This document shows positions 1,178 to 14,053 of a DNA stretch of 16,635 nt, one piece after another. This DNA comes from Hyphomicrobiales bacterium (GTDB lineage: Bacteria; Pseudomonadota; Alphaproteobacteria; Rhodobacterales; Rhodobacteraceae): assembly GCA_003558415.1 (NCBI GenBank), contig PWLT01000236.1, forward strand, positions 1 through 16,635, given 5' to 3'. Position 1 is the first letter of the stretch, and each line of letters starts with the position of its first letter. The notes beneath the pieces are model-generated. The model had not been told where the DNA came from and did not search any database. It saw only the letters and a program-made list of their open reading frames with translations. A program made the translations under genes and the position numbers.

Positions 1178-1231
1178 TTGACATGTGGCGCGCATCGTTT
1201 AGTTGACAACGCCAACTAATTTTTGCATCTT
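1178..1231 (+). promoter_or_regulatory. Candidate promoter of the pobA-pcaDCHG unit
   Basis: Two perfect TTGACA boxes (1178-1183 and 1203-1208) lie between the dehydratase stop and pobA. For the first, a weak -10 (TAGTTG, 1200-1205) would sit inside the palindrome at 1199-1219. The second TTGACA is itself inside the palindrome, with a weak CATCTT -10 at 1226-1231. Either way a protein bound to the palindrome would block RNA polymerase. The -10 elements match poorly (about 3 of 6), so the exact start site is uncertain. Confidence 0.5.
1199..1219. promoter_or_regulatory. Perfect palindromic operator-like site upstream of pobA
   Basis: TTAGTTG-N7-CAACTAA is a perfect inverted repeat with 7-nt arms and a 7-nt centre, in a locally AT-rich patch of otherwise GC-rich DNA. 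Its size and TAGTTG/CAACTA half-sites resemble sites bound by MarR-family regulators of aromatic catabolism; this is recall, not a search. It lies 32 bp before the pobA ATG and overlaps a TTGACA box, so repression is the likely mode. No regulator gene lies in the window. Confidence 0.6.
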
Positions 1232-1237
1232 CGCGGC

Positions 1238-1246
1238 AAGGAGGAG
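1238..1246 (+). promoter_or_regulatory. Ribosome binding site of pobA
   Basis: AAGGAGGAG ends 4 nt before the ATG at 1251, with its GGAGG core 6 nt away. This fixes the pobA start at 1251 rather than the in-frame upstream ATG at 1203, which would lie inside the palindrome and add a non-conserved N-terminal extension. Confidence 0.85.
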
Positions 1247-1250
1247 CCTC

Positions 1251-2420
1251 ATGCGCACACAGGTCTGCATCATTGGCGGCGGTCCCGCCGGATTGCTGCT
1301 CGCACAGCTTCTGCAGCGTGACGGGATCGAGTCGATCGTGCTTGAACGGCGCTCGCGCGACTACGTTCTCTCGCGCATCCGCGCCGGGGTTCTGGAATGG
1401 GGCAGCGTCGAGAAACTGCGCGAGGCGGGTGTGGGCGCGCGCATGGATGCCGAGGGGTTCGTTCACACGGGCACCTATCTCTCCGCGCTCAACCGCGGTT
1501 TTCGCATCGATTTCGAGGGGCTGACCGGCAAGCCGGTGATGGTCTACGGCCAGACCGAGGTGACGCATGACCTCTATGCCGCACGCGACGCCGCCGGCGG
1601 CGTGATCATCGACGAGGCCGAGGGCGTCCATCCGCACGGGCTCGACACCGAAGCGCCCTGGGTCACCTACCACAAGGACGGATCCGAACACCGCATCGAT
1701 TGCGATTTCGTCGCCGGTTGCGACGGGTTCCACGGCGTCAGCCGCACCTGCATCCCCGACAGCGTGCTCCAGACCTTCGAGAAGGTCTATCCCTTCGGCT
1801 GGCTCGGAGTGCTCTCGGAAACGCCGCCCGCGCATGAAGAGCTGATTTATGCCAATCACGAGCGCGGCTTCGCGCTGTGCTCGATGCGCAACATGAAACT
1901 CAGCCGCTACTACATTCAGGTGCCGCTCGATCACAAGGTCGAGCAATGGTCGGATGACGCATTCTGGGACGAGTTGCGCCGGCGCATCCCCACCGATGTG
2001 GCCGAATCCATGGTCACCGGGCCGTCGATCGAGAAATCCATCGCGCCGCTGCGCTCCTTCGTGGCCGAACCGATGCGCTGGGGCCGGCTGTTTCTGGTCG
2101 GCGACGCGGCGCATATCGTCCCGCCCACCGGCGCCAAGGGCCTCAACCTGGCGGTCTCGGACGTGCACTACCTGCATGAGGGGCTCAAGTCGCATTACGA
2201 CGACGGCGAGGACGAGGGGATCGAGCGCTATTCCGAGCGCGCACTGGCGCGGGTGTGGCATTCCGAGCGATTCTCCTGGCAGATGACCTCGATGATGCAC
2301 CGCTTTCCCGATCAGGGCGGTTTCGGCCAGAAGGTGCAGGAGAGCGAGCTGGCCTTTCTGGAGATGTCGCGCGCCGCGCGTACCGCGCTGGCGGAAAACT
2401 ATGTCGGGCTGCCGTTCTGA
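1251..2420 (+). CDS. pobA: 4-hydroxybenzoate 3-monooxygenase
   Basis: FAD- and NADPH-dependent flavoprotein hydroxylase, 389 aa, converting 4-hydroxybenzoate to protocatechuate in the cytoplasm, the entry step of this pathway branch. Seen: the N-terminal dinucleotide-binding motif VCIIGGGPAGLLLAQLL (residues 5-21), the RIRAGVLEWG segment, YGQTEVTHDL, IAGCDGFHG-like VAGCDGFHGVSR, and the family hallmark GDAAHIVPPTGAKGLNLAVS in the flavin-binding region. SRYYIQVPL and the C-terminal ENYVGLP segment supply substrate-site residues known from the Pseudomonas enzyme. The protein ends right after ENYVGLPF, a few residues shorter than the Pseudomonas form. The start at 1251 is chosen from the strong RBS. 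Its stop is followed 8 nt later by pcaD, so the two are almost certainly co-transcribed. Confidence 0.97.
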   Translation: MRTQVCIIGGGPAGLLLAQLLQRDGIESIVLERRSRDYVLSRIRAGVLEWGSVEKLREAGVGARMDAEGFVHTGTYLSALNRGFRIDFEGLTGKPVMVYGQTEVTHDLYAARDAAGGVIIDEAEGVHPHGLDTEAPWVTYHKDGSEHRIDCDFVAGCDGFHGVSRTCIPDSVLQTFEKVYPFGWLGVLSETPPAHEELIYANHERGFALCSMRNMKLSRYYIQVPLDHKVEQWSDDAFWDELRRRIPTDVAESMVTGPSIEKSIAPLRSFVAEPMRWGRLFLVGDAAHIVPPTGAKGLNLAVSDVHYLHEGLKSHYDDGEDEGIERYSERALARVWHSERFSWQMTSMMHRFPDQGGFGQKVQESELAFLEMSRAARTALAENYVGLPF

Positions 2421-2428
2421 GGTGTGAG

Positions 2429-3211
2429 ATGCAAGTCGCCGAGATCAACGGGATTCACCTACATTACAGCGACATGGGGCACGGCGCGCCGGTGGTGCTG
2501 TGCAACTCGCTGGGCACCGACATGCGCCTGTGGGACGGGGTGCTGGGGCGCCTGCCGGATGGGTTGCGGATCGTGCGATTCGACAAGCGCGGCCACGGGC
2601 TGAGCGACTGCCCCGCCGCGCCTTACTCCATGGGCAGCCTGATCAGCGATGCCGAGGCGCTGCTCGATCATCTCGAGATCCGCAAATGCCTCTTTGTCGG
2701 CTGCTCCATCGGCGGGATGATCGCGCAGGGGCTTGCGGCCAAGCGCCCAGACCTGGTGCGCGCCGCCGTGCTGTCCAACACCGCCGCCAAGATCGGCACC
2801 CGCGAGATGTGGCATGACCGCATCGCCGCGGTCGAGAAAGGCGGCGTTGAGGCGCTGGCCGACGCGGTGATGGAGCGCTGGTTCACCCCGGCCTTCCGCG
2901 CAACGCCCGAGCTGCGCGCCTGGCGCAACATGCTCACCCGCACCCCGGCGGACGGCTATTCGGGCTGTTCGGCGGCCATCGCGGGCACGGATTTCTACAC
3001 CACCACCGCCGATCTGCGCCTGCCCGTCCTGGGCATCGCGGGCGATCACGACGGCTCCACCCCGCCCGATCTGGTGCGCGAGACGGTCGAGCTGATCGAG
3101 GGCGCCCGATTCGAGATCATCCGCGGCGCGGGGCATCTGCCGATGGTGGAACAGCCCGAGGCCTTTGCCGCCCTGCTCAACGCATTCATCGAGGAGACCG
3201 GCCATGTCTGA
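2429..3211 (+). CDS. pcaD: 3-oxoadipate enol-lactonase
   Basis: Alpha/beta hydrolase, 260 aa, that hydrolyses 3-oxoadipate enol-lactone to 3-oxoadipate. The catalytic triad is readable: nucleophile S93 in VGCSIGGMIAQ, acid D208 in GIAGDHDGSTPP, and H236 in GAGHLPMVEQP. The oxyanion region LCNSLGTDMRLWD (24-36) is typical of PcaD. Length matches the family. The ATG at 2429 is preceded by GAGG (2419-2422) overlapping the pobA stop, 6 nt from the start; the frame stays open further upstream into pobA, but that extension is not conserved. The stop overlaps the pcaC start by 8 nt. pcaD is separate from pcaC here, not fused as PcaL. Confidence 0.95.
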   Translation: MQVAEINGIHLHYSDMGHGAPVVLCNSLGTDMRLWDGVLGRLPDGLRIVRFDKRGHGLSDCPAAPYSMGSLISDAEALLDHLEIRKCLFVGCSIGGMIAQGLAAKRPDLVRAAVLSNTAAKIGTREMWHDRIAAVEKGGVEALADAVMERWFTPAFRATPELRAWRNMLTRTPADGYSGCSAAIAGTDFYTTTADLRLPVLGIAGDHDGSTPPDLVRETVELIEGARFEIIRGAGHLPMVEQPEAFAALLNAFIEETGHV

Positions 3212-3587
3212 TGCGATCACCCGGCGCGGCGATGCTGCGCGCCGCCGCGTTCTGGGCGATGCGCATGTCGATCGCTCGCGCGCCGAGCCCGATGCGCTCA
3301 ACGCCCCCTTTGTCGATCTGATTACCGATGCGGCCTGGGGCCATGTCTGGGGGCGCGAAACGATCAGCGACCGCGAACGCTCGATGATGACCATCGCGCT
3401 GTTGGCGGGCCTGGGCAATTACGAGGAACTGGCGCTGCATGTGCGCGCCACCGCCAATACCGGCGCCACCCGCGATGACGTGGTCGAGGCGCTCATGCAT
3501 GTGGCGATCTATGCCGGCGTTCCGCGCGCCAATCACGCGTTCAAGATCGTCCGGGACACATTCGCCGAAATGGAGGAAACGCAATGA
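3204..3587 (+). CDS. pcaC: 4-carboxymuconolactone decarboxylase
   Basis: Small cytoplasmic enzyme of the CMD/AhpD-like family, 127 aa, decarboxylating 4-carboxymuconolactone to 3-oxoadipate enol-lactone, the substrate of PcaD. Seen: the helical core with ERSMMTIALLAGLGNYEELALHVRA-type sequence (about residues 59-82), TGATRDDVVEALMHVAIYAGVPRANHAF near the C-terminus, and the family GVPRANHA signature. The ATG at 3204 has GAGGAG (3191-3196) 7 nt upstream; an in-frame ATG at 3165 inside pcaD is rejected because it lacks an RBS and adds non-conserved sequence. It overlaps pcaD by 8 nt and pcaH by 4 nt (ATGA), so translation is coupled along the row. Confidence 0.94.
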   Translation: MSDAITRRGDAARRRVLGDAHVDRSRAEPDALNAPFVDLITDAAWGHVWGRETISDRERSMMTIALLAGLGNYEELALHVRATANTGATRDDVVEALMHVAIYAGVPRANHAFKIVRDTFAEMEETQ

Positions 3588-4312
3588 CCGACCAGGGAGT
3601 CCTCATTCCCCGCAACCGGGAGATTCACCCCCTTCCCTATTACCCTGACTACAAGACGAGCGTGCCGCGCTCGCCCAACCTGCCGCTGCTGTCGATGGAA
3701 TCGACGCCCACCGAGGAATGGGGCCCGATGTTCGGCCACAACCTGCTGGGGCCACTCGATAACAACCTCATCCTCAACTTCACGCAGGGCAAGGCGCCGG
3801 CGGTCGGCGAGCGGATCCTCGTGCATGGCCGCGTGCTCGACGAGAACGCGCGCCCCGTGCCCAACACATTGGTCGAGATCTGGCAGGCCAATGCGGGCGG
3901 GCGCTACCGCCATGTCAAGGACACCTATTTCGCGCCGCTCGATCCCAATTTCGGTGGCTGCGGGCGCACCATCACCGACGAGAACGGCTATTACGAGTTC
4001 CTCACCATCCGCCCGGGCGCCTATCCCTGGCCCAACCGCGCCAATGACTGGCGGCCGATGCATATCCACTACTCGATCTTCGGGCACGGATTCGGCCAGC
4101 GGCTCATCAGCCAGATGTATTTCGAGGGCGACCCGCTGATCGACCGCTGCCCGATCGCCGCCACGATCCAGAGCCGCAGCCAGCTCGACCGGCTGGTCGC
4201 GCCGCTCGACATGTCGAAGGCGCGCCCGCACGATTTCCTGGCCTACAAGTTCGACATCGTGCTGCGCGGCCGCCGCCAGACCATGTTCGAGAACAAGATT
4301 GAGGGGATGTGA
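3584..4312 (+). CDS. pcaH: Protocatechuate 3,4-dioxygenase, beta subunit
   Basis: Iron(III)-binding catalytic subunit, 242 aa, of the intradiol ring-cleaving dioxygenase that converts protocatechuate plus O2 to 3-carboxy-cis,cis-muconate. All four iron ligands are visible and fall at the same numbers as in the Pseudomonas putida enzyme: Y108 (GGRYRH), Y147 (PGAYPW), H160 and H162 (MHIHYS). The N-terminal REIHPLPYYPDYKTSVPRSP segment is typical of the beta subunit. The ATG at 3584 overlaps the pcaC stop (ATGA) and GGAGG at 3572-3576 serves as RBS. pcaG follows after 1 nt, as expected for a 1:1 alpha-beta complex. Confidence 0.97.
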   Translation: MTDQGVLIPRNREIHPLPYYPDYKTSVPRSPNLPLLSMESTPTEEWGPMFGHNLLGPLDNNLILNFTQGKAPAVGERILVHGRVLDENARPVPNTLVEIWQANAGGRYRHVKDTYFAPLDPNFGGCGRTITDENGYYEFLTIRPGAYPWPNRANDWRPMHIHYSIFGHGFGQRLISQMYFEGDPLIDRCPIAATIQSRSQLDRLVAPLDMSKARPHDFLAYKFDIVLRGRRQTMFENKIEGM

Positions 4313-4313
4313 G

Positions 4314-4913
4314 ATGGTTCAGAAACTCGACACGCTGATCGAAACCCCGTCGCAGACCGCAGGGCCCTATGTTCATATCGGGTGCATCCCGACCTTCGCG
4401 GGCGTAGAGGGGATCTACCCCGAGGATCTCGGCAAGCGCGCCATCGAGGAGGGTGCGAAGGGCGAGATCATCACCATCACCGGATCGGTCTATGACGGCA
4501 CCGGCTGGGCGCTGCGCGACGCGATGATGGAAAGCTGGCAGGCCGATGCGGCCGGTAAGTATCCCGGTCAGCCCGGCGCCGACCCCAAGGTCAACGGCTT
4601 TTGCCGCTTCGCCGCCGACGGGCAGTCGGGCGAGTTCACCCTGCGCACCGTCAAGCCGGGCAAGGTGCCCATGCGCGGCGGCGGGTTTCAGGCGCCGCAT
4701 ATCGCGGTGTGGACCGTGGCGCGCGGCATCAATATCGGCCTTCTCACCCGCATCTATTTCGAGGATGAGGACAATGAGGGCGACCCGCTGCTCTCGCGCA
4801 TCGAACAGCGCCCCCGCGTTGAGACGCTGATCGCGAAGAAGACCGGCGAGGGCCAGTACCGTTTCGACATCCGCCTGCAAGGCGAGGGCGAGACGGTGTT
4901 TCTCGACATCTGA
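4314..4913 (+). CDS. pcaG: Protocatechuate 3,4-dioxygenase, alpha subunit
   Basis: Alpha subunit partner of PcaH, 199 aa, same fold but without the iron ligands. Seen: ETPSQTAGPYVHIGC (residues 10-24), the jelly-roll segment ITGSVYDGTGWALRDAMMESWQAD with GKYPGQ where the beta subunit carries its Tyr ligand region, the family-typical FQAPHIAVWTVARGI near residues 125-139, and LLTRIYFEDE followed by the C-terminal RFDIRLQGEGETVFLDI. The start at 4314 lies 1 nt after the pcaH stop; GAGGGG (4301-4306) lies 7 nt upstream. A longer in-frame start at 4299 would lie within pcaH and lacks support. This is the last gene before the 4944-4971 hairpin. Confidence 0.96.
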   Translation: MVQKLDTLIETPSQTAGPYVHIGCIPTFAGVEGIYPEDLGKRAIEEGAKGEIITITGSVYDGTGWALRDAMMESWQADAAGKYPGQPGADPKVNGFCRFAADGQSGEFTLRTVKPGKVPMRGGGFQAPHIAVWTVARGINIGLLTRIYFEDEDNEGDPLLSRIEQRPRVETLIAKKTGEGQYRFDIRLQGEGETVFLDI

Positions 4914-4943
4914 GGGCATGAAAGCACGCAACCCGATGCGTCG

Positions 4944-4971
4944 CACCCCCGGCCACAGGCCGGGGGTGTTT
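4944..4971 (+). terminator. Intrinsic terminator after pcaG
   Basis: CACCCCCGGCC (4944-4954), loop ACA, GGCCGGGGGTG (4958-4968), then TTT. The 11-bp stem is perfect and very GC-rich. The T-tract is only three long before a C, so some read-through is likely. It separates pobA-pcaDCHG from the hydrolase-BKACE-pcaB set, whose first codon is only 23 bp downstream. Confidence 0.85.
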
Positions 4972-4994
4972 CAAACCGCAGCGCTGGAGCGGTG

Positions 4995-5708
4995 ATGGCC
5001 GATTTCCTGCTCATTCACGGGTCCTGTCACGGGGCCTGGTGCTGGCAGTCCGTGGTGGAGCGGCTGCACGCGGCCGGCCATGGCGCGCGCGCCATCGACC
5101 TGCCCGGCCACGGGGACGACCCGACGCCGCTGCCCGAGGTGACACTGGAGCGCTACGCAGAGGCGATCCTCGATGCGATCGACACCCCGGTTGTGCTCGT
5201 GGGCCATTCCATGGCGGGCTATCCGATCTCGCTTGTCGCCGATCGCGCGCCCGAGAAGATCGCCAGGCTCGTCTATCTGTGCGCCTATGTCCCCGCGCGG
5301 GGCATGTCGCTGGCCCAGATGCGCCGGGCCGGGCCGCGCCAGCCGCTGCGCCCGGCGATCCGCATGGCCTCCGACGGGTTGAGCTTTACCATCGACCCGG
5401 AGATGGCCGCAGATGTCTTCTTCAATGACTGCGATGCGGCCACGGCGGCCCAGGCGGTCGCCCGCCTCGGCCCCCAGCCGGTCGCGCCGCAAGAGGAACC
5501 GCTCACCCTCGGGGAAAACTGGGCGCGTACCGGAAAGCACTACATCCGCTGCGCGCGCGACAACACCATCCCGCCCGAGTATCAACTCACGATGAGCGCC
5601 GGCTTTCCCGAGGGCCATGTCAGCACCCTGCCCGCTTCCCACTCGCCCTTCCTGTCGATGCCCGATAGACTGGCAGGCAAACTGATCGAAATCGCGGAGA
5701 CAACATGA
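4995..5708 (+). CDS. EstC-like alpha/beta hydrolase
   Basis: Compact cytoplasmic alpha/beta hydrolase, 237 aa, of the group that includes EstC-type esterases and plant methylesterases/hydroxynitrile lyases. Seen: N-terminal FLLIHGSCHGAWCW with the oxyanion HG, nucleophile S72 in LVGHSMAGYP, probable acid D189 in RCARDNTIPPEYQ, and H216 in LPASHSPFLSMP. ATG at 4995 is chosen because GGAG (4986-4989) sits 5 nt upstream; GTG at 4992 directly before it is an alternative. It overlaps the BKACE gene by 4 nt. The position suggests hydrolysis of an aromatic ester or a lactone feeding the pca pathway, but PcaD already supplies the enol-lactonase, so the substrate is unknown. Confidence 0.88.
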   Translation: MADFLLIHGSCHGAWCWQSVVERLHAAGHGARAIDLPGHGDDPTPLPEVTLERYAEAILDAIDTPVVLVGHSMAGYPISLVADRAPEKIARLVYLCAYVPARGMSLAQMRRAGPRQPLRPAIRMASDGLSFTIDPEMAADVFFNDCDAATAAQAVARLGPQPVAPQEEPLTLGENWARTGKHYIRCARDNTIPPEYQLTMSAGFPEGHVSTLPASHSPFLSMPDRLAGKLIEIAETT

Positions 5709-6535
5709 CCAACCCCTGCATCCTTTGTGTCGCCATTACCGGCTCGCTGCCGACCAAGGCCAACAACCCCGCCGTGCCGATCACCGTCGAGGAGCAGGTG
5801 GAGAGCACGCAGGAGGCGTTCGAGGCCGGCGCGAGCATCTGCCACGCCCATGTGCGCAACGACGACCAGACGCCCAGTTCCGACCCGGAGAAATTCGCCC
5901 GCCTCAAGGAGGGGCTGGAAAAACACTGCCCCGGCATGATCATCCAGTTCTCCACCGGCGGGCGCTCGGGCGCGGGCAAGGCGCGCGGGGGGATGCTTCC
6001 GCTGCGCCCCGACATGGCCTCGCTCTCGGTGGGCTCCAACAACTTCCCCACCCGCGTCTATGAGAACCCGCCCGATCTTGTGGACTGGCTGGCCGCCGAG
6101 ATGCTCGAATACGACGTCAAGCCCGAGATAGAGGCCTTTGATCTGAGCCACATCTTCCAGGCCGTGAAGATGAGCGAGGACGGGCGGTTGAAGAAACCGC
6201 TCTATGTCCAGTTCGTCATGGGTGTGAAGAACGCCATGCCGGTGGATCGCGATGTCTTCGACTTCTACATCCGCACGCTCAACCGCCTTGCGCCGGACGC
6301 GCAATGGTGCGGGGCTGGCATCGGGGCGAACCAGATCACGCTGAACGAGTGGTCGATCGCCGCGGGCGGGCACACACGCACGGGGCTCGAAGACAATGTG
6401 CGCCTCGACCGCGAAAGGTTGGCGCCCTCGAACGCCGCACTGATCAAGCGCGCCGCAGATCTGTGTGAGAAACACGAGCGCCCCGTCGCCACGCCCGCGC
6501 AGGCGCGCGAGATCCTCGGCCTGCGGCCCGCGTGA
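5705..6535 (+). CDS. BKACE-family beta-keto acid cleavage enzyme (former DUF849)
   Basis: TIM-barrel zinc enzyme, 276 aa, of the 3-keto-5-aminohexanoate cleavage family, whose members condense a beta-keto acid with acetyl-CoA and split it into acetoacetate and a new acyl-CoA. By eye alignment to Kce: Zn ligands H47 and H49 (CHAHVR) and E229, followed by catalytic D230 (TGLEDN), plus R225, S83 (QFSTGG) and E141 (KPEIEAF). The residue aligning with Kce Glu14, which I recall as binding the substrate amino group, is L15 (ITGSLPTK), so an aminated substrate is unlikely. It lies between an esterase and pcaB, sharing ATGA and TGATG junctions with them. The context suggests 3-oxoadipate as substrate, giving succinyl-CoA plus acetoacetate; this is inference. 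Confidence 0.92.
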   Translation: MTNPCILCVAITGSLPTKANNPAVPITVEEQVESTQEAFEAGASICHAHVRNDDQTPSSDPEKFARLKEGLEKHCPGMIIQFSTGGRSGAGKARGGMLPLRPDMASLSVGSNNFPTRVYENPPDLVDWLAAEMLEYDVKPEIEAFDLSHIFQAVKMSEDGRLKKPLYVQFVMGVKNAMPVDRDVFDFYIRTLNRLAPDAQWCGAGIGANQITLNEWSIAAGGHTRTGLEDNVRLDRERLAPSNAALIKRAADLCEKHERPVATPAQAREILGLRPA

Positions 6536-11292: not shown

Positions 11293-12786
11293 GTGAACGA
11301 GATCGCGACGATCCGTCCGGGACAGGACTCCAGCCAGGAAGAAGACAGCCTTCCGCACAATATCGAGGCCGAGCAGCAACTCCTCGGCGCGATTCTGACC
11401 AATAACGAGGTCTATGACCGCATCGCGGCGATCATCTCGGCCGAGCATTTCTTCGAGCCGCTGCATGCGCGCATCTTCGAGGTCGCCGCCGCGCGCATCC
11501 AGAAGAACGCGCTCGCCTCTCCGGTGACGCTCAAGGCGTTTCTCGAAGAGGATGAAAGGCTCAAGGAACTGGGCGGGCCGGCCTATCTGGTGCGGATCGC
11601 GGGCGCGGCGATCTCGGCCTATGCGGCGCGCGATTATGCGCAGATGATCCGCGATCACGCCGTGCGGCGCGAGCTGATCGGGCTGGGGCGCGACATCGCC
11701 GATCGCGCCGGGCGCGTCGAGGTCGACAGCGAACCCGCCGACCAGATCGTCGAGGCCGAGCAGCGCCTCTACAAGCTGGGCGAGCAGGGCCATGCGGCGC
11801 GCGGATTCCAGTCCTTCCTCAAGGCGGTGACCGATGCGGTCAATGTTGCCGCCGCCGCCTATCAGCGTGACGGGGGCCTTGCCGGCATCGCCACTGCGCT
11901 CGAGGATCTCGACCGCAAGCTGGGCGGGCTCCACCCCTCGGACCTGCTGATCGTTGCCGGGCGCCCCTCGATGGGCAAGACCTCGCTGGCCACCAATATC
12001 GCCTTCAACATCGCCCGCGCCCATCGGCACGGGCCGCGCCCCGACGGCACGGAAGGGACGATCAATGGCGGCGTGGTCGGCTTCTTCAGTCTGGAGATGA
12101 GCGCCGAGCAGCTTGCCGCGCGCATCCTCTCCGAAGCCTCCGAAGTACCCTCCGAGCAGATCCGGCGCGGCGACATGACCGAGGCCGAATTCCGCCGCTT
12201 CGTCGAGGCGGCCAAGGAGCTGGAATCCTGCCCGCTCTATATCGACGACACGCCCGCATTGCCGATCAGCCAGCTCGCCGCGCGTGCGCGCAGGCTCAAG
12301 CGCACCCACGGGCTCGACGTGCTGTTCGTGGATTACCTGCAGCTTCTGCGCGCCAACACCCGCTCGGACAGCCGCGTCAACGAGGTCTCCGAGATCACGC
12401 AGGGGCTTAAGGCCATCGCCAAGGAGCTCGACATCCCCGTCGTCGCGCTCAGCCAGCTCTCGCGGCAAGTCGAGAACCGCGAGGACAAGCGCCCGCAGCT
12501 CTCGGATCTGCGCGAATCGGGCTCGATCGAGCAGGATGCAGATGTGGTGATGTTCGTCTTCCGCGAAGAATACTACCGCGAGCGCGAGAAGCCCGGCGAT
12601 CACGACCTCGAAGCCATGGCCAAATGGCAGGAGGTCATGGCGCAGGTCCACGGCAAGGCCGAGGTGATCATCGGCAAGCAGCGTCACGGCCCGATCGGCT
12701 CCGTGGAGCTGAGCTTCGAGGGCCGCTTCACCCGTTTCGGCAACCTCGCCAAGGCCTGGCAGCAGGGCGCTGACGAGGGTTTCTGA
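11293..12786 (+). CDS. dnaB: Replicative DNA helicase DnaB
   Basis: Hexameric ATP-driven helicase, 497 aa, that unwinds DNA at the replication fork. Domain order: N-terminal domain beginning LPHNIEAEQQLLGAILTNN (20-38), linker, then the RecA-like motor with Walker A GRPSMGKTS (223-231), FFSLEMSAEQLAAR, the Walker B-type strand LDVLFVDYLQLL (D347), ALSQLSRQVENREDKRPQ, and the C-terminal RHGPIGSVELSFEGRFTRF with the conserved basic residues. There is a short insert (HRHGPRPDGTEGTINGG, about 244-260), common in alphaproteobacterial DnaB by recall. No intein interrupts it. The start is GTG at 11293 with GGGGA (11281-11285) 7 nt upstream; MNEIATI fits the family, and no ATG start upstream is better. 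Confidence 0.97.
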   Translation: MNEIATIRPGQDSSQEEDSLPHNIEAEQQLLGAILTNNEVYDRIAAIISAEHFFEPLHARIFEVAAARIQKNALASPVTLKAFLEEDERLKELGGPAYLVRIAGAAISAYAARDYAQMIRDHAVRRELIGLGRDIADRAGRVEVDSEPADQIVEAEQRLYKLGEQGHAARGFQSFLKAVTDAVNVAAAAYQRDGGLAGIATALEDLDRKLGGLHPSDLLIVAGRPSMGKTSLATNIAFNIARAHRHGPRPDGTEGTINGGVVGFFSLEMSAEQLAARILSEASEVPSEQIRRGDMTEAEFRRFVEAAKELESCPLYIDDTPALPISQLAARARRLKRTHGLDVLFVDYLQLLRANTRSDSRVNEVSEITQGLKAIAKELDIPVVALSQLSRQVENREDKRPQLSDLRESGSIEQDADVVMFVFREEYYREREKPGDHDLEAMAKWQEVMAQVHGKAEVIIGKQRHGPIGSVELSFEGRFTRFGNLAKAWQQGADEGF

Positions 12787-12845
12787 CCCCTCCGCAGCCT
12801 CCTTCCTCGCTCCCAAAGGTGCCAGGGCCGGCATGCAAGTCCAGC

Positions 12846-12864
12846 GGCGGGCGTAACGCCCGTC
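12846..12864 (+). terminator. Weak hairpin after dnaB, possible terminator
   Basis: GGCGGGCG, loop TAA, CGCCCGTC gives 8 bp with one G-T pair, 60 bp after the dnaB stop. No T-tract follows, so intrinsic termination is doubtful; it may do nothing. Confidence 0.25.
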
Positions 12865-12905
12865 CGTCCCGCTTGCGGCTACTGCCACCGCCCCCGTCGT
12901 GGGCG

Positions 12906-12968
12906 GCGCGAAACGCGCTATCGCGCGGCGGGTGGGCGGGCGGGGCCGTGCGATAGCGCGTTTCGCGC
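12906..12968. repeat. Perfect 19-bp inverted repeat with G-quadruplex loop
   Basis: GCGCGAAACGCGCTATCGC (12906-12924) pairs perfectly with GCGATAGCGCGTTTCGCGC (12950-12968). The stem continues inward through one G-T pair and CGGC/GCCG to about 24 bp. The remaining loop (12930-12944) is a four-tract G-quadruplex motif on the + strand. Each arm is also nearly self-complementary (GCGC-GAAAC-GCGC). It lies between dnaB and alr and ends exactly where a TTGACG box begins. There is no T-tract. Confidence 0.9.
12930..12945 (+). other. G-quadruplex motif
   Basis: GGGTGGGCGGGCGGGG: four G-tracts with three single-nucleotide loops, the pattern known to give very stable parallel quadruplexes. It occupies the loop of the 12906-12968 hairpin. 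The pattern is seen directly; folding in the cell is inference. Confidence 0.75.
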
Positions 12969-12997
12969 TTGACGCTTGCGCCGGGCCTGTCACAAAC
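12969..12997 (+). promoter_or_regulatory. Candidate alr promoter giving a leaderless transcript
   Basis: TTGACG (12969-12974) directly follows the inverted repeat. Seventeen bp further is a weak -10 candidate (ACAAAC, 12992-12997). The expected start site, about 7 nt later, falls on the alr ATG at 13004, and no Shine-Dalgarno sequence is present between them. Confidence 0.4.
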
Positions 12998-13003
12998 CCC
13001 CGC

Positions 13004-14053
13004 ATGGCCACAGCATCGCTCAGCATCGATCTCGACGCGCTCGCCGCGAACTGGCGCGCGCTCGACGCCGCATCCGCCCCCGGCGTCGAAACCGGCGCCA
13101 CCGTGAAGGCTTCCGGCTACGGGCTGGGCATCGCCCCGGTCGCGCGTACCCTTGCCCGGGCCGGGGCGCGGCGCTTTTTCGTCGCACTCGCCGAAGAGGG
13201 CGCCGAGCTGCGCGACATTCTCGGCCCGGGGCCCGAAATCTATGTCTATTCCGGCCACATGCCCGGCGATGCCGAACCGATCGCCGGCCGCGATCTCATT
13301 CCGCTGCTCAACTCGCTCGACCAGATGGTGCGCCATTTCGAGGCACTGCCCGACCACCCTTTCGGCGTTCAGCTCGACAGCGGCATGAACCGGCTGGGCA
13401 TGGAGCCCGCCGAATGGGCGGCGGTGGCCGAGATCGCGCTGCCGCGACGCCCGCGCCTGCTGCAAAGCCACCTTGCCTGCGCCGACACGCCTGCCCACTC
13501 CGCGAATGCAAGCCAGCTCAAGACCTTCTGCCAGATCACCGAAGGCATGGATATTCCGCGCTCGCTCGCCGCGACCGGCGGGGTGCTGCTTGGCGGCGAC
13601 TATCACTTCGAGCTCACCCGCCCCGGCATCGGCCTCTATGGTGGTGCCCCCTTCACGCAGGCACAGCCGGTGGCGCATCTGTCGATCCCAGTGATCCAGA
13701 CGCGCGAACTCGCCCCCGGCGAGTCGGTGGGCTATGGCTGCACCTGGATGGCCGAGGCGCCCACACGCATCGCCACGCTCGCGGCGGGCTATGCCGACGG
13801 GATCATAAGGGCGATGGGTAATCGCGCGGTGCTCCATCACGGGTCCACCCCCTGCCCGCTGCGTGGGCGCGTCTCGATGGATCTGCTCACCGTCGATATC
13901 ACGCATCTCGACGATGCCCCCGAGTCTCTCGACCTGCTCGGCGCGCATCAGTCCATCGACGGCATCGCCGAAGCCGCCGGGACGATCGGCTACGAGATCC
14001 TCACCGCGCTGGGTGCGCGCTACAGCCGCCATTACCTGGGCGGCGAAAAATGA
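13004..14053 (+). CDS. alr: Alanine racemase
   Basis: PLP-dependent fold-type III enzyme, 349 aa, interconverting L- and D-alanine to supply D-alanine for peptidoglycan. Seen: PLP lysine K35 in [11 protein letters not shown] (usually VKADxYGxG; the Asp is Ser here), [11 protein letters not shown] (123-133), [12 protein letters not shown], catalytic Tyr Y244 in [26 protein letters not shown], and [12 protein letters not shown]. The start at 13004 gives [17 protein letters not shown], the normal N-terminus; upstream in-frame extension would run through the hairpin at 12906-12968 and is low-complexity. No Shine-Dalgarno sequence is seen. The stop overlaps the mlaE start (ATGA), coupling wall and envelope-lipid genes. 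Confidence 0.95.

Follow-up and report, generated by a model that had tools for sequence, protein, structure and literature searches.

The window, that is, the whole stretch of 16,635 nucleotides that was analyzed, carries at 1203-6535 open reading frames that we take to resemble a 4-hydroxybenzoate/protocatechuate degradation cluster (pobA, pcaDCHG-like) and, further downstream, the gene pair dnaB and alr (Table 1). The gap between these two genes holds a hairpin with perfect 19-bp arms on either side of GGGTGGGCGGGCGGG, and its stem reaches about 24 bp when the inner G-T and four G-C pairs are counted. It is intergenic and lies beside a gene 3′ end, with 143 nt separating the dnaB stop codon from the G-tract. 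A preliminary description of this DNA had reported such an inverted repeat, extendable to about 24 bp and with a four-tract, single-linker loop, and we confirm its coordinates and pairing.

Table 1. Annotated features in and around the dnaB-alr gap of the window
Feature	Position	Strand	Remarks
dnaB, replicative helicase, upstream gene	11293..12786	+	Pfam DnaB_C; head-on to the inferred fork
Remaining dnaB-alr gap	12787..12905	+	Missing in three same-genus gaps; contains a smaller GGGCG-TAA-CGCCC hairpin
Left arm, GCGCGAAACGCGCTATCGC	12906..12924	+	In sequence that three same-genus gaps lack
Inner left stem, GCGGC	12925..12929	+	Pairs with 12945-12949 (one G-T and four G-C)
Family 15-mer, GGGTGGGCGGGCGGG	12930..12944	+	Four G3 tracts, single T/C linkers, potential loop G-quadruplex; start of loop tract GGGTGGGCGGGCGGGG
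Right arm, GCGATAGCGCGTTTCGCGC	12950..12968	+	Outer 13 nt and TTGAC resemble same-genus pre-promoter sequence
TTGACG, likely alr -35 box	12969..12974	+	TTGAC common to hairpin-less relatives
alr, alanine racemase, downstream gene	13004..14053	+	Pfam Ala_racemase

When the window was resampled 60 times under a first-order Markov model, the longest perfect arm at spacers of 3-30 averaged 10.2 bp and never exceeded 13 bp, compared to the 19 bp observed. No other inverted repeat in the window pairs 13 or more of 14 arm positions around a loop of 3-26, and the score of the hairpin's arms (23.6) was matched by none of 200 shuffles. Folding of the GC-rich stretch as RNA gave an energy z-score of -1.73, with 12 of 200 shuffles folding equally well. 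Because this whole-stretch energy is unremarkable, our case is built on the perfect pairing and on the comparison with relatives. In the window's own assembly (2.37 Mb, 75% complete), the loop 16-mer has a single occurrence and no convincing second copy of an arm was found. Rfam covariance models run against the gap returned only MIR1437, at 28.5 bits with a gathering score of 168. When the 86-base hairpin region was searched in eight genomes, the hits were the region itself and weak matches, one of which (G004:C77) exposed the family described below.

The dnaB-alr locus was compared across 12 relative stretches around alr or dnaB, seven of which showed dnaB-alr adjacency by reading. GGGHGGGHGGGHGGG was absent from both strands of all 12, and none of the seven syntenic gaps had a hairpin or a four-tract motif. 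Three same-genus gaps measure 54-55 nt and retain TTGAC and TGTCA; the gap length at L026 is unreliable. The outer 13 nt of the right arm together with TTGAC are identical to G002 at 16 of 18 positions (counted by eye; fewer in G001 and G004), and the right arm is therefore probably ancestral. The left arm and the G-tract map to sequence that is missing from the same-genus relatives. Taken together, the alignments suggest that the dnaB-alr copy is probably a lineage-specific, recent gain beside an older promoter, and the hairpin may have formed when the pre-promoter sequence was copied by fold-back, in which case the right arm would be old and the left arm new. The special role at dnaB-alr that had been suggested earlier is not supported: the seven syntenic gaps lack both the paired arms and the four-tract motif, which is the finding that the preliminary description had named as refuting it. 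Since these gaps lack the element and the hairpin-less relatives still keep the TTGAC box, it is not an ancestral alr switch, although it may insulate alr at present. The alr promoter assigned to the TTGACG box is based on TTGAC and TGTCA being common to relatives; a sigma-70 consensus scan of the gap found no promoter.

To place the hairpin among similar sequences, we turned to the genomes of the window's bacterial family (295 in total), where the 15-mer GGGTGGGCGGGCGGG occurs at 84 places in 35 genomes, compared to 23 places for a reversed control. We examined 85 places, comprising 83 of these 84 (the one left out occupies bases 1-15 of its contig) and two others. Pairing of the flanks exceeded that of shuffled flanks (P ≤ 0.05) at 69 of the 85, and 67 also scored at least 9; these 67 hairpins are spread over 22 genomes (by reading of the tables), and their arms are mostly different. 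The remaining 15-mer sites include sites called inside genes and a type with CCCGCCC following the G-run. At L069, L071, L073, L082, L109, L110, L116 and L149, the 15-mer stands directly before CCCGC (GCCCGC in L149) without flanking arms and is mostly preceded by an A-rich spacer.

Outside the window's bacterial family, the 15-mer was found in one of 140 sampled alphaproteobacterial genomes, near a contig end. A scan of an 84,980-species collection with the 21-mer GCGGGGTGGGCGGGCGGGAGC matched 100 stretches, of which 95 are hairpins. Among the 80 of the 100 matches listed, all but two belong to the Rhodobacterales, either by name or because they were taken as such (unclassified MAGs, and a record named “Oceanobacillus HTM 045” that shares sequence with G008 of the window's bacterial family); the two exceptions among these 80, Thermobifida and Goekera, are not hairpins. 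The genera among the 21-mer matches that were looked up (Marinibacterium, Albimonas, Limibaculum and Pararhodobacter) are Paracoccaceae of the Rhodobacterales.

The densest set comes from a complete genome of 6.8 Mb (G266), in which 29 of 29 distinct GGGHGGGHGGGHGGG sites (30 listed, two of them overlapping) are hairpin loops with an arm score of at least 12.9 that none of 300 shuffles equaled. All 30 matches lie on the 5.56-Mb contig and none on the nine others. No A linker occurs at the 29 sites; pyrimidine linkers give more stable quadruplexes. Within the window's own genus (G000-G004), the association of motif and hairpin is weaker: eight sites have non-G linkers, and only three of them are hairpins (that of the window and two in G004), one of the five others being located in the window's own assembly.

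For the analyses of structure, placement and polarity, 213 distinct motifs remained after removal of duplicates and of flanks below 2.5 kb; 189 of them score at least 9 and are treated as hairpins, 23 score below 7, and one that scores between 7 and 9 was excluded from both classes. Duplicate and flank filters reduce the 100 21-mer loci to 69 for the count of arm changes, while the value of 95 in 100 is unfiltered. ViennaRNA predicted a quadruplex in 189 of 189 hairpins, which is near-trivial for such G-tracts, and its energies seem excessive and were given no weight. We conclude that the window hairpin is a member of a family of quadruplex-tipped hairpins in the Rhodobacterales that has apparently not been described before. 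The existence of this family is well supported by the sequence comparisons, and we infer its function below. The preliminary description knew of no element of this form, and we likewise found no earlier description in the open-licence literature, most subscription papers being beyond the reach of that search; the three open-licence papers containing the exact 15-mer or its complement concern aptamers, as far as titles and the beginnings of abstracts tell.

Members of the family combine a stem of free sequence (median 19 bp) with the usual tip GGGYGGGYGGGYGGG. The arms are near-perfect, with 93% Watson-Crick pairs on average and 36 of 189 perfect. For the comparison of orthologues, flank pieces of 12 G266 elements were searched against two congeners, G322 (which shares sequence with Marinibacterium profundimaris) and G323; one of the 12 pieces had no orthologue, and 19 loci were read. 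G022 has no orthologues, because its genus holds G022 alone. A four-G-tract hairpin is present at nine of the 19 loci (L178, L184, L186, L187, L188, L189, L190, L191 and L192), L193 retains the stem with a 4-nt loop, the tip of L179 is split by another inserted palindrome, and no such hairpin was found at the other eight. Turnover of the elements is therefore fast, as only nine of 19 orthologous loci keep the four-tract hairpin.

In the orthologous tips, linkers swap between T and C with the G-tracts intact, and orthologous as well as paralogous arms have changed on both sides with pairing preserved. Pairs changed on both sides, unchanged and broken number 29, 23 and 10 in segment 1, 11, 5 and 1 in segment 2, 16, 26 and 2 in segment 3, 0, 14 and 1 in segment 5, 17, 28 and 0 in segment 7, and 14, 4 and 1 in segment 9, with one-sided changes at 4, 0, 4, 1, 4 and 1 pairs, respectively; because the stems were aligned from the tip, replacement of whole arms is counted along with stepwise compensation, and the two are inseparable. 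Covariation of the arms under retention of the G-tracts had been set beforehand as a test of the element, and this is the pattern that we observe at other loci, with the tip retained at nine of the 19 orthologues.

Two further details were seen at these loci. The second palindrome inside the G-tip of L179 (G322:C34, just left of 362944) reads GTCGCCATT...AATGGCGAC, and a similar one lies near L134 of G022. L195 and L189 of G323 share a similar 3′-end tail like GCTTCTTTCTCTTCTCAAATACCCC (gene strand), which comes after an ordinary hairpin in L195 and after a quadruplex-tipped one in L189.

With genes called by a codon-likelihood caller trained on G266, 75 of the 189 hairpins lie in convergent gaps, 61 in tandem (<<), 28 in tandem (>>) and 10 in divergent gaps, six inside called genes and nine at locus edges. 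The 174 intergenic cases (75 convergent, 89 tandem, 10 divergent) differ from sampled gaps (34, 129 and 51; chi-square P = 7 × 10^-11), the reference being gaps of at least 40 nt from 400 kb of G266 only, the hairpins coming from many genomes and tandem gaps being pooled. The commonest case, in 136 of 174, is a gene on the other strand (C-strand) that ends near the hairpin. The stop codon of the C-strand gene is at a median of 36 nt from the tract (10th-90th percentile 24-118), compared to 103 nt for the stop codon of the G-strand gene, and it is the nearer one in 62 of 75 convergent gaps. At dnaB-alr, both neighbors are on the G-strand, as in 28 of the 174 cases, and the hairpin thus lacks a trait that is common, though not universal, in the family, namely the nearby stop codon of a C-strand gene.

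The hairpins are also oriented with respect to replication. In G266, GC skew along the 5.56-Mb chromosome and GGGNAGGG, which we take to be the FtsK-orienting polar sequence (G-rich and polar to replication), place the origin near 5.34-5.36 Mb and the terminus at about 2.54-2.80 Mb. Next to the inferred origin are two parS-like sites, both exact, at positions 5.334 and 5.336 Mb, and dnaA is found at the start of the record; single 20-kb skew windows are noisy, and some are of the opposite sign, such as those at 0.56, 5.04, 0.10-0.14 and 5.50 Mb. The G-strand is the leading-strand template at 28 of 29 sites, the exception being at 4.009 Mb, and an origin beyond 5.41 Mb would make this 27 of 29. 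In detail, all 17 sites between 0.30 and 2.15 Mb, and the single one at 5.41 Mb, have the G-strand on the minus strand; of the 11 sites between 2.97 and 4.85 Mb, 10 have it on the plus strand. Gene orientation as the sole cause of the polarity was rejected, as leading-strand genes account for 211 of 358 sampled genes (P = 5 × 10^-6 for 28 of 29).

In G322, 27 of 32 pairs of neighboring motifs on a contig agree in orientation, as do 13 of 16 in G323. The disagreements include pairs of copies that face opposite ways within about 100 bp of each other, contrary to the polarity, at G322:C56:181615/181699 and G323:C24:12323/12432. Of the 189 hairpins, a set that was partly collected with a hairpin-type pattern and contains repeated copies and orthologues, 81.5% show negative local skew on their G-strand, and GGGNAGGG is found 73 times on the same strand and 274 times on the other. 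The skew is also mostly negative (91%) for the 23 non-hairpin motifs, with 10 and 18 occurrences of GGGNAGGG, and it is negative in 89% of the cases with both genes on the G-strand (>>, n = 28); it is weakly positive at L067 of G004. The window has a GC skew of -0.031 and carries GGGNAGGG zero times on the plus and five times on the minus strand, a base composition that, in a draft assembly without a located origin, fits a G-strand serving as leading-strand template; dnaB and alr would then both be head-on to the fork. The family, the placement at gene 3′ ends and the replication polarity could not be seen in the preliminary description.

The polarity of the family runs opposite to the general bacterial quadruplex trend reported by Quadrupia (PMC12581993). 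On E. coli plasmids, several quadruplex repeats were reported to be more mutable with the G-strand as lagging-strand template, and one repeat to have its highest rates on the leading-strand template (PMC10530614).

As read from the sequences, the family has variable complementary arms, kept G-tracts, a placement at gene 3′ ends and a G-strand that in most cases serves as leading-strand template, and it lacks a T-tail. The reading that we favor, with about even confidence, is a structural 3′-boundary element whose quadruplex tip would survive only on the leading-strand template. Once the two strands separate, through supercoiling, transcription or at a replication fork, the arms would form a hairpin and the G-strand tip would fold as a quadruplex, and the folded hairpin would act as a boundary at which transcription units end. 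In the commonest case, the quadruplex would lie in the template strand of the other-strand gene, whose mRNA would bear a hairpin with a C-rich tip. In cases like dnaB-alr, the mRNA would bear a G-tipped hairpin instead, by which the dnaB mRNA could be ended or protected and the adjacent alr promoter shielded; an effect on dnaB mRNA ends or on alr insulation is plausible. We propose that the lagging-strand template, being exposed, would make a quadruplex hairpin formed on it unstable and lead to its loss, so that the surviving copies are those with the G-strand on the leading-strand template. A more far-reaching version, which we put forward tentatively, is a lineage-specific structural code, in which hairpins with free arms and a quadruplex tip on the leading-strand template only would mark gene ends as a one-way transcription/replication boundary for fork and RNA polymerase.

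The hairpins could alternatively be a polar chromosome signal, such as a landing site or a site of programmed pausing, to which a DNA translocase, a helicase or the replisome responds in one direction only, with gene 3′ ends simply being where such a signal does least harm. This would agree with the near-uniform orientation within the G266 chromosome, with the restriction of all motif matches to its 5.56-Mb contig and with the persistence of polarity where both neighbors lie on the G-strand. Yet there are about 30 copies in 6.8 Mb, which turn over fast between species and are associated with stop codons, and they are oriented opposite to GGGNAGGG in the same chromosome. The FtsK-orienting sequence is likewise G-rich and replication-polar, whereas the family is hairpin-borne, far rarer and on the opposite strand, its G-rich strand not being the leading strand (for the window, by composition only). 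We regard a signal of this kind as rather unlikely.

Somewhat less likely still is that the hairpins are a mutational by-product with no selected function, arising when the polymerase stalls at G-tracts of the leading-strand template and the new strand turns back to serve as its own template, which would leave perfect arms around the tract. The polarity and the near-perfect arms in spite of differing orthologues fit this process, as does the window hairpin, in which the first-copied arm is ancestral and the far arm new (one case checked). It leaves unexplained why one tip and linker order is preferred over its reversed control, why A linkers are lacking in G266 and why the hairpins are placed at 3′ ends.

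An ordinary intrinsic terminator with an accidentally G-rich loop is improbable. Like intrinsic terminators, the family forms stable hairpins soon after stop codons and is enriched in convergent gaps, and at the orthologous locus L195 a conventional-looking hairpin takes the place of the element. But the T fraction after the stem is close to background on both strands (0.167 vs. 0.156, and 0.143 vs. 0.150 on the other strand), at least six T in the 12 positions beside the stem, on either side, occur in four of 189 hairpins, and a scan of the dnaB-alr gap found no canonical terminator. Because a T-tail is lacking, these are not standard intrinsic terminators; the family further differs by its fixed G-tract loop of 15-17 nt, which is retained where the arms are not, and by its replication polarity.

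REP/BIME and other dispersed palindromes are intergenic and in some species present in many copies per genome. Spread of the family as a mobile REP/MITE-type palindromic repeat by a transposase is very improbable, even though several copies in G008, G022 and G098 share about 160-400 bp around the hairpin. Between genomes, copies share mainly the tip, the arms differ even at orthologous loci, and the 21-mer with Y linkers had no match in viral contigs. Unlike REP/BIME, which have a conserved stem in many genomic copies, the family conserves the tip and mostly not the arms, and for the window hairpin neither a second tract nor the same arms elsewhere were found. Chance in GC-rich DNA, with which the GC-rich context and the modest energy z-score would agree, is hardly credible given the family and arms of 19 bp against a resampling maximum of 13, so that the earlier judgment that the pairing exceeds GC-rich noise was borne out.

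Paracoccus denitrificans belongs to the Rhodobacterales. A regulatory, intergenic G-quadruplex upstream of its nasT gene differs in lying 150 nt upstream of a gene and in having longer loops, and the main text does not mention a hairpin or inverted repeat (PMC5123632). The TMECO/BoxC intrastrand triplex motif of E. coli K-12 is structured, conserved and reported as always intergenic, but has a triplex-type stem sequence, and no strand bias is reported (PMC4666352). Quadruplex-forming repeats of Xanthomonas and Nostoc are bacterial G-quadruplexes as well, but, by the start of the abstract, simple sequence repeats and not hairpin tips (PMC4692102). An inverted-repeat survey of 118,019 genomes would have missed the family, because spacers were limited to eight bases (PMC13155455). 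If our reading is true, the family would be a conserved DNA/RNA element whose identity lies in its structure, a covarying stem with a quadruplex tip, whatever the stem sequence. With 29 natural copies in a single genome, whose orthologues are in part retained, in part altered and in part absent, the formation of quadruplexes in living bacteria and their replication cost would become directly testable.

Longer shared sequences were observed around some of the copies. L151-L159 of G008 share up to about 280 bp at 70-85% identity, approximately, with extra hairpins alongside, and form a dispersed multi-hairpin repeat. About 160-400 bp are shared by L083, L117, L119 and L120 of G098 and by L133, L137, L138 and L142 of G022, with motifs such as CTCTTTCTTGGTCCAAATACTC and GGTATTTTTGGCCAGATGAA. 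In G322 and G323, query part 245-306 revealed a dispersed repeat around TTGTCCCACGCGTGGGACA with many matches in the genus.
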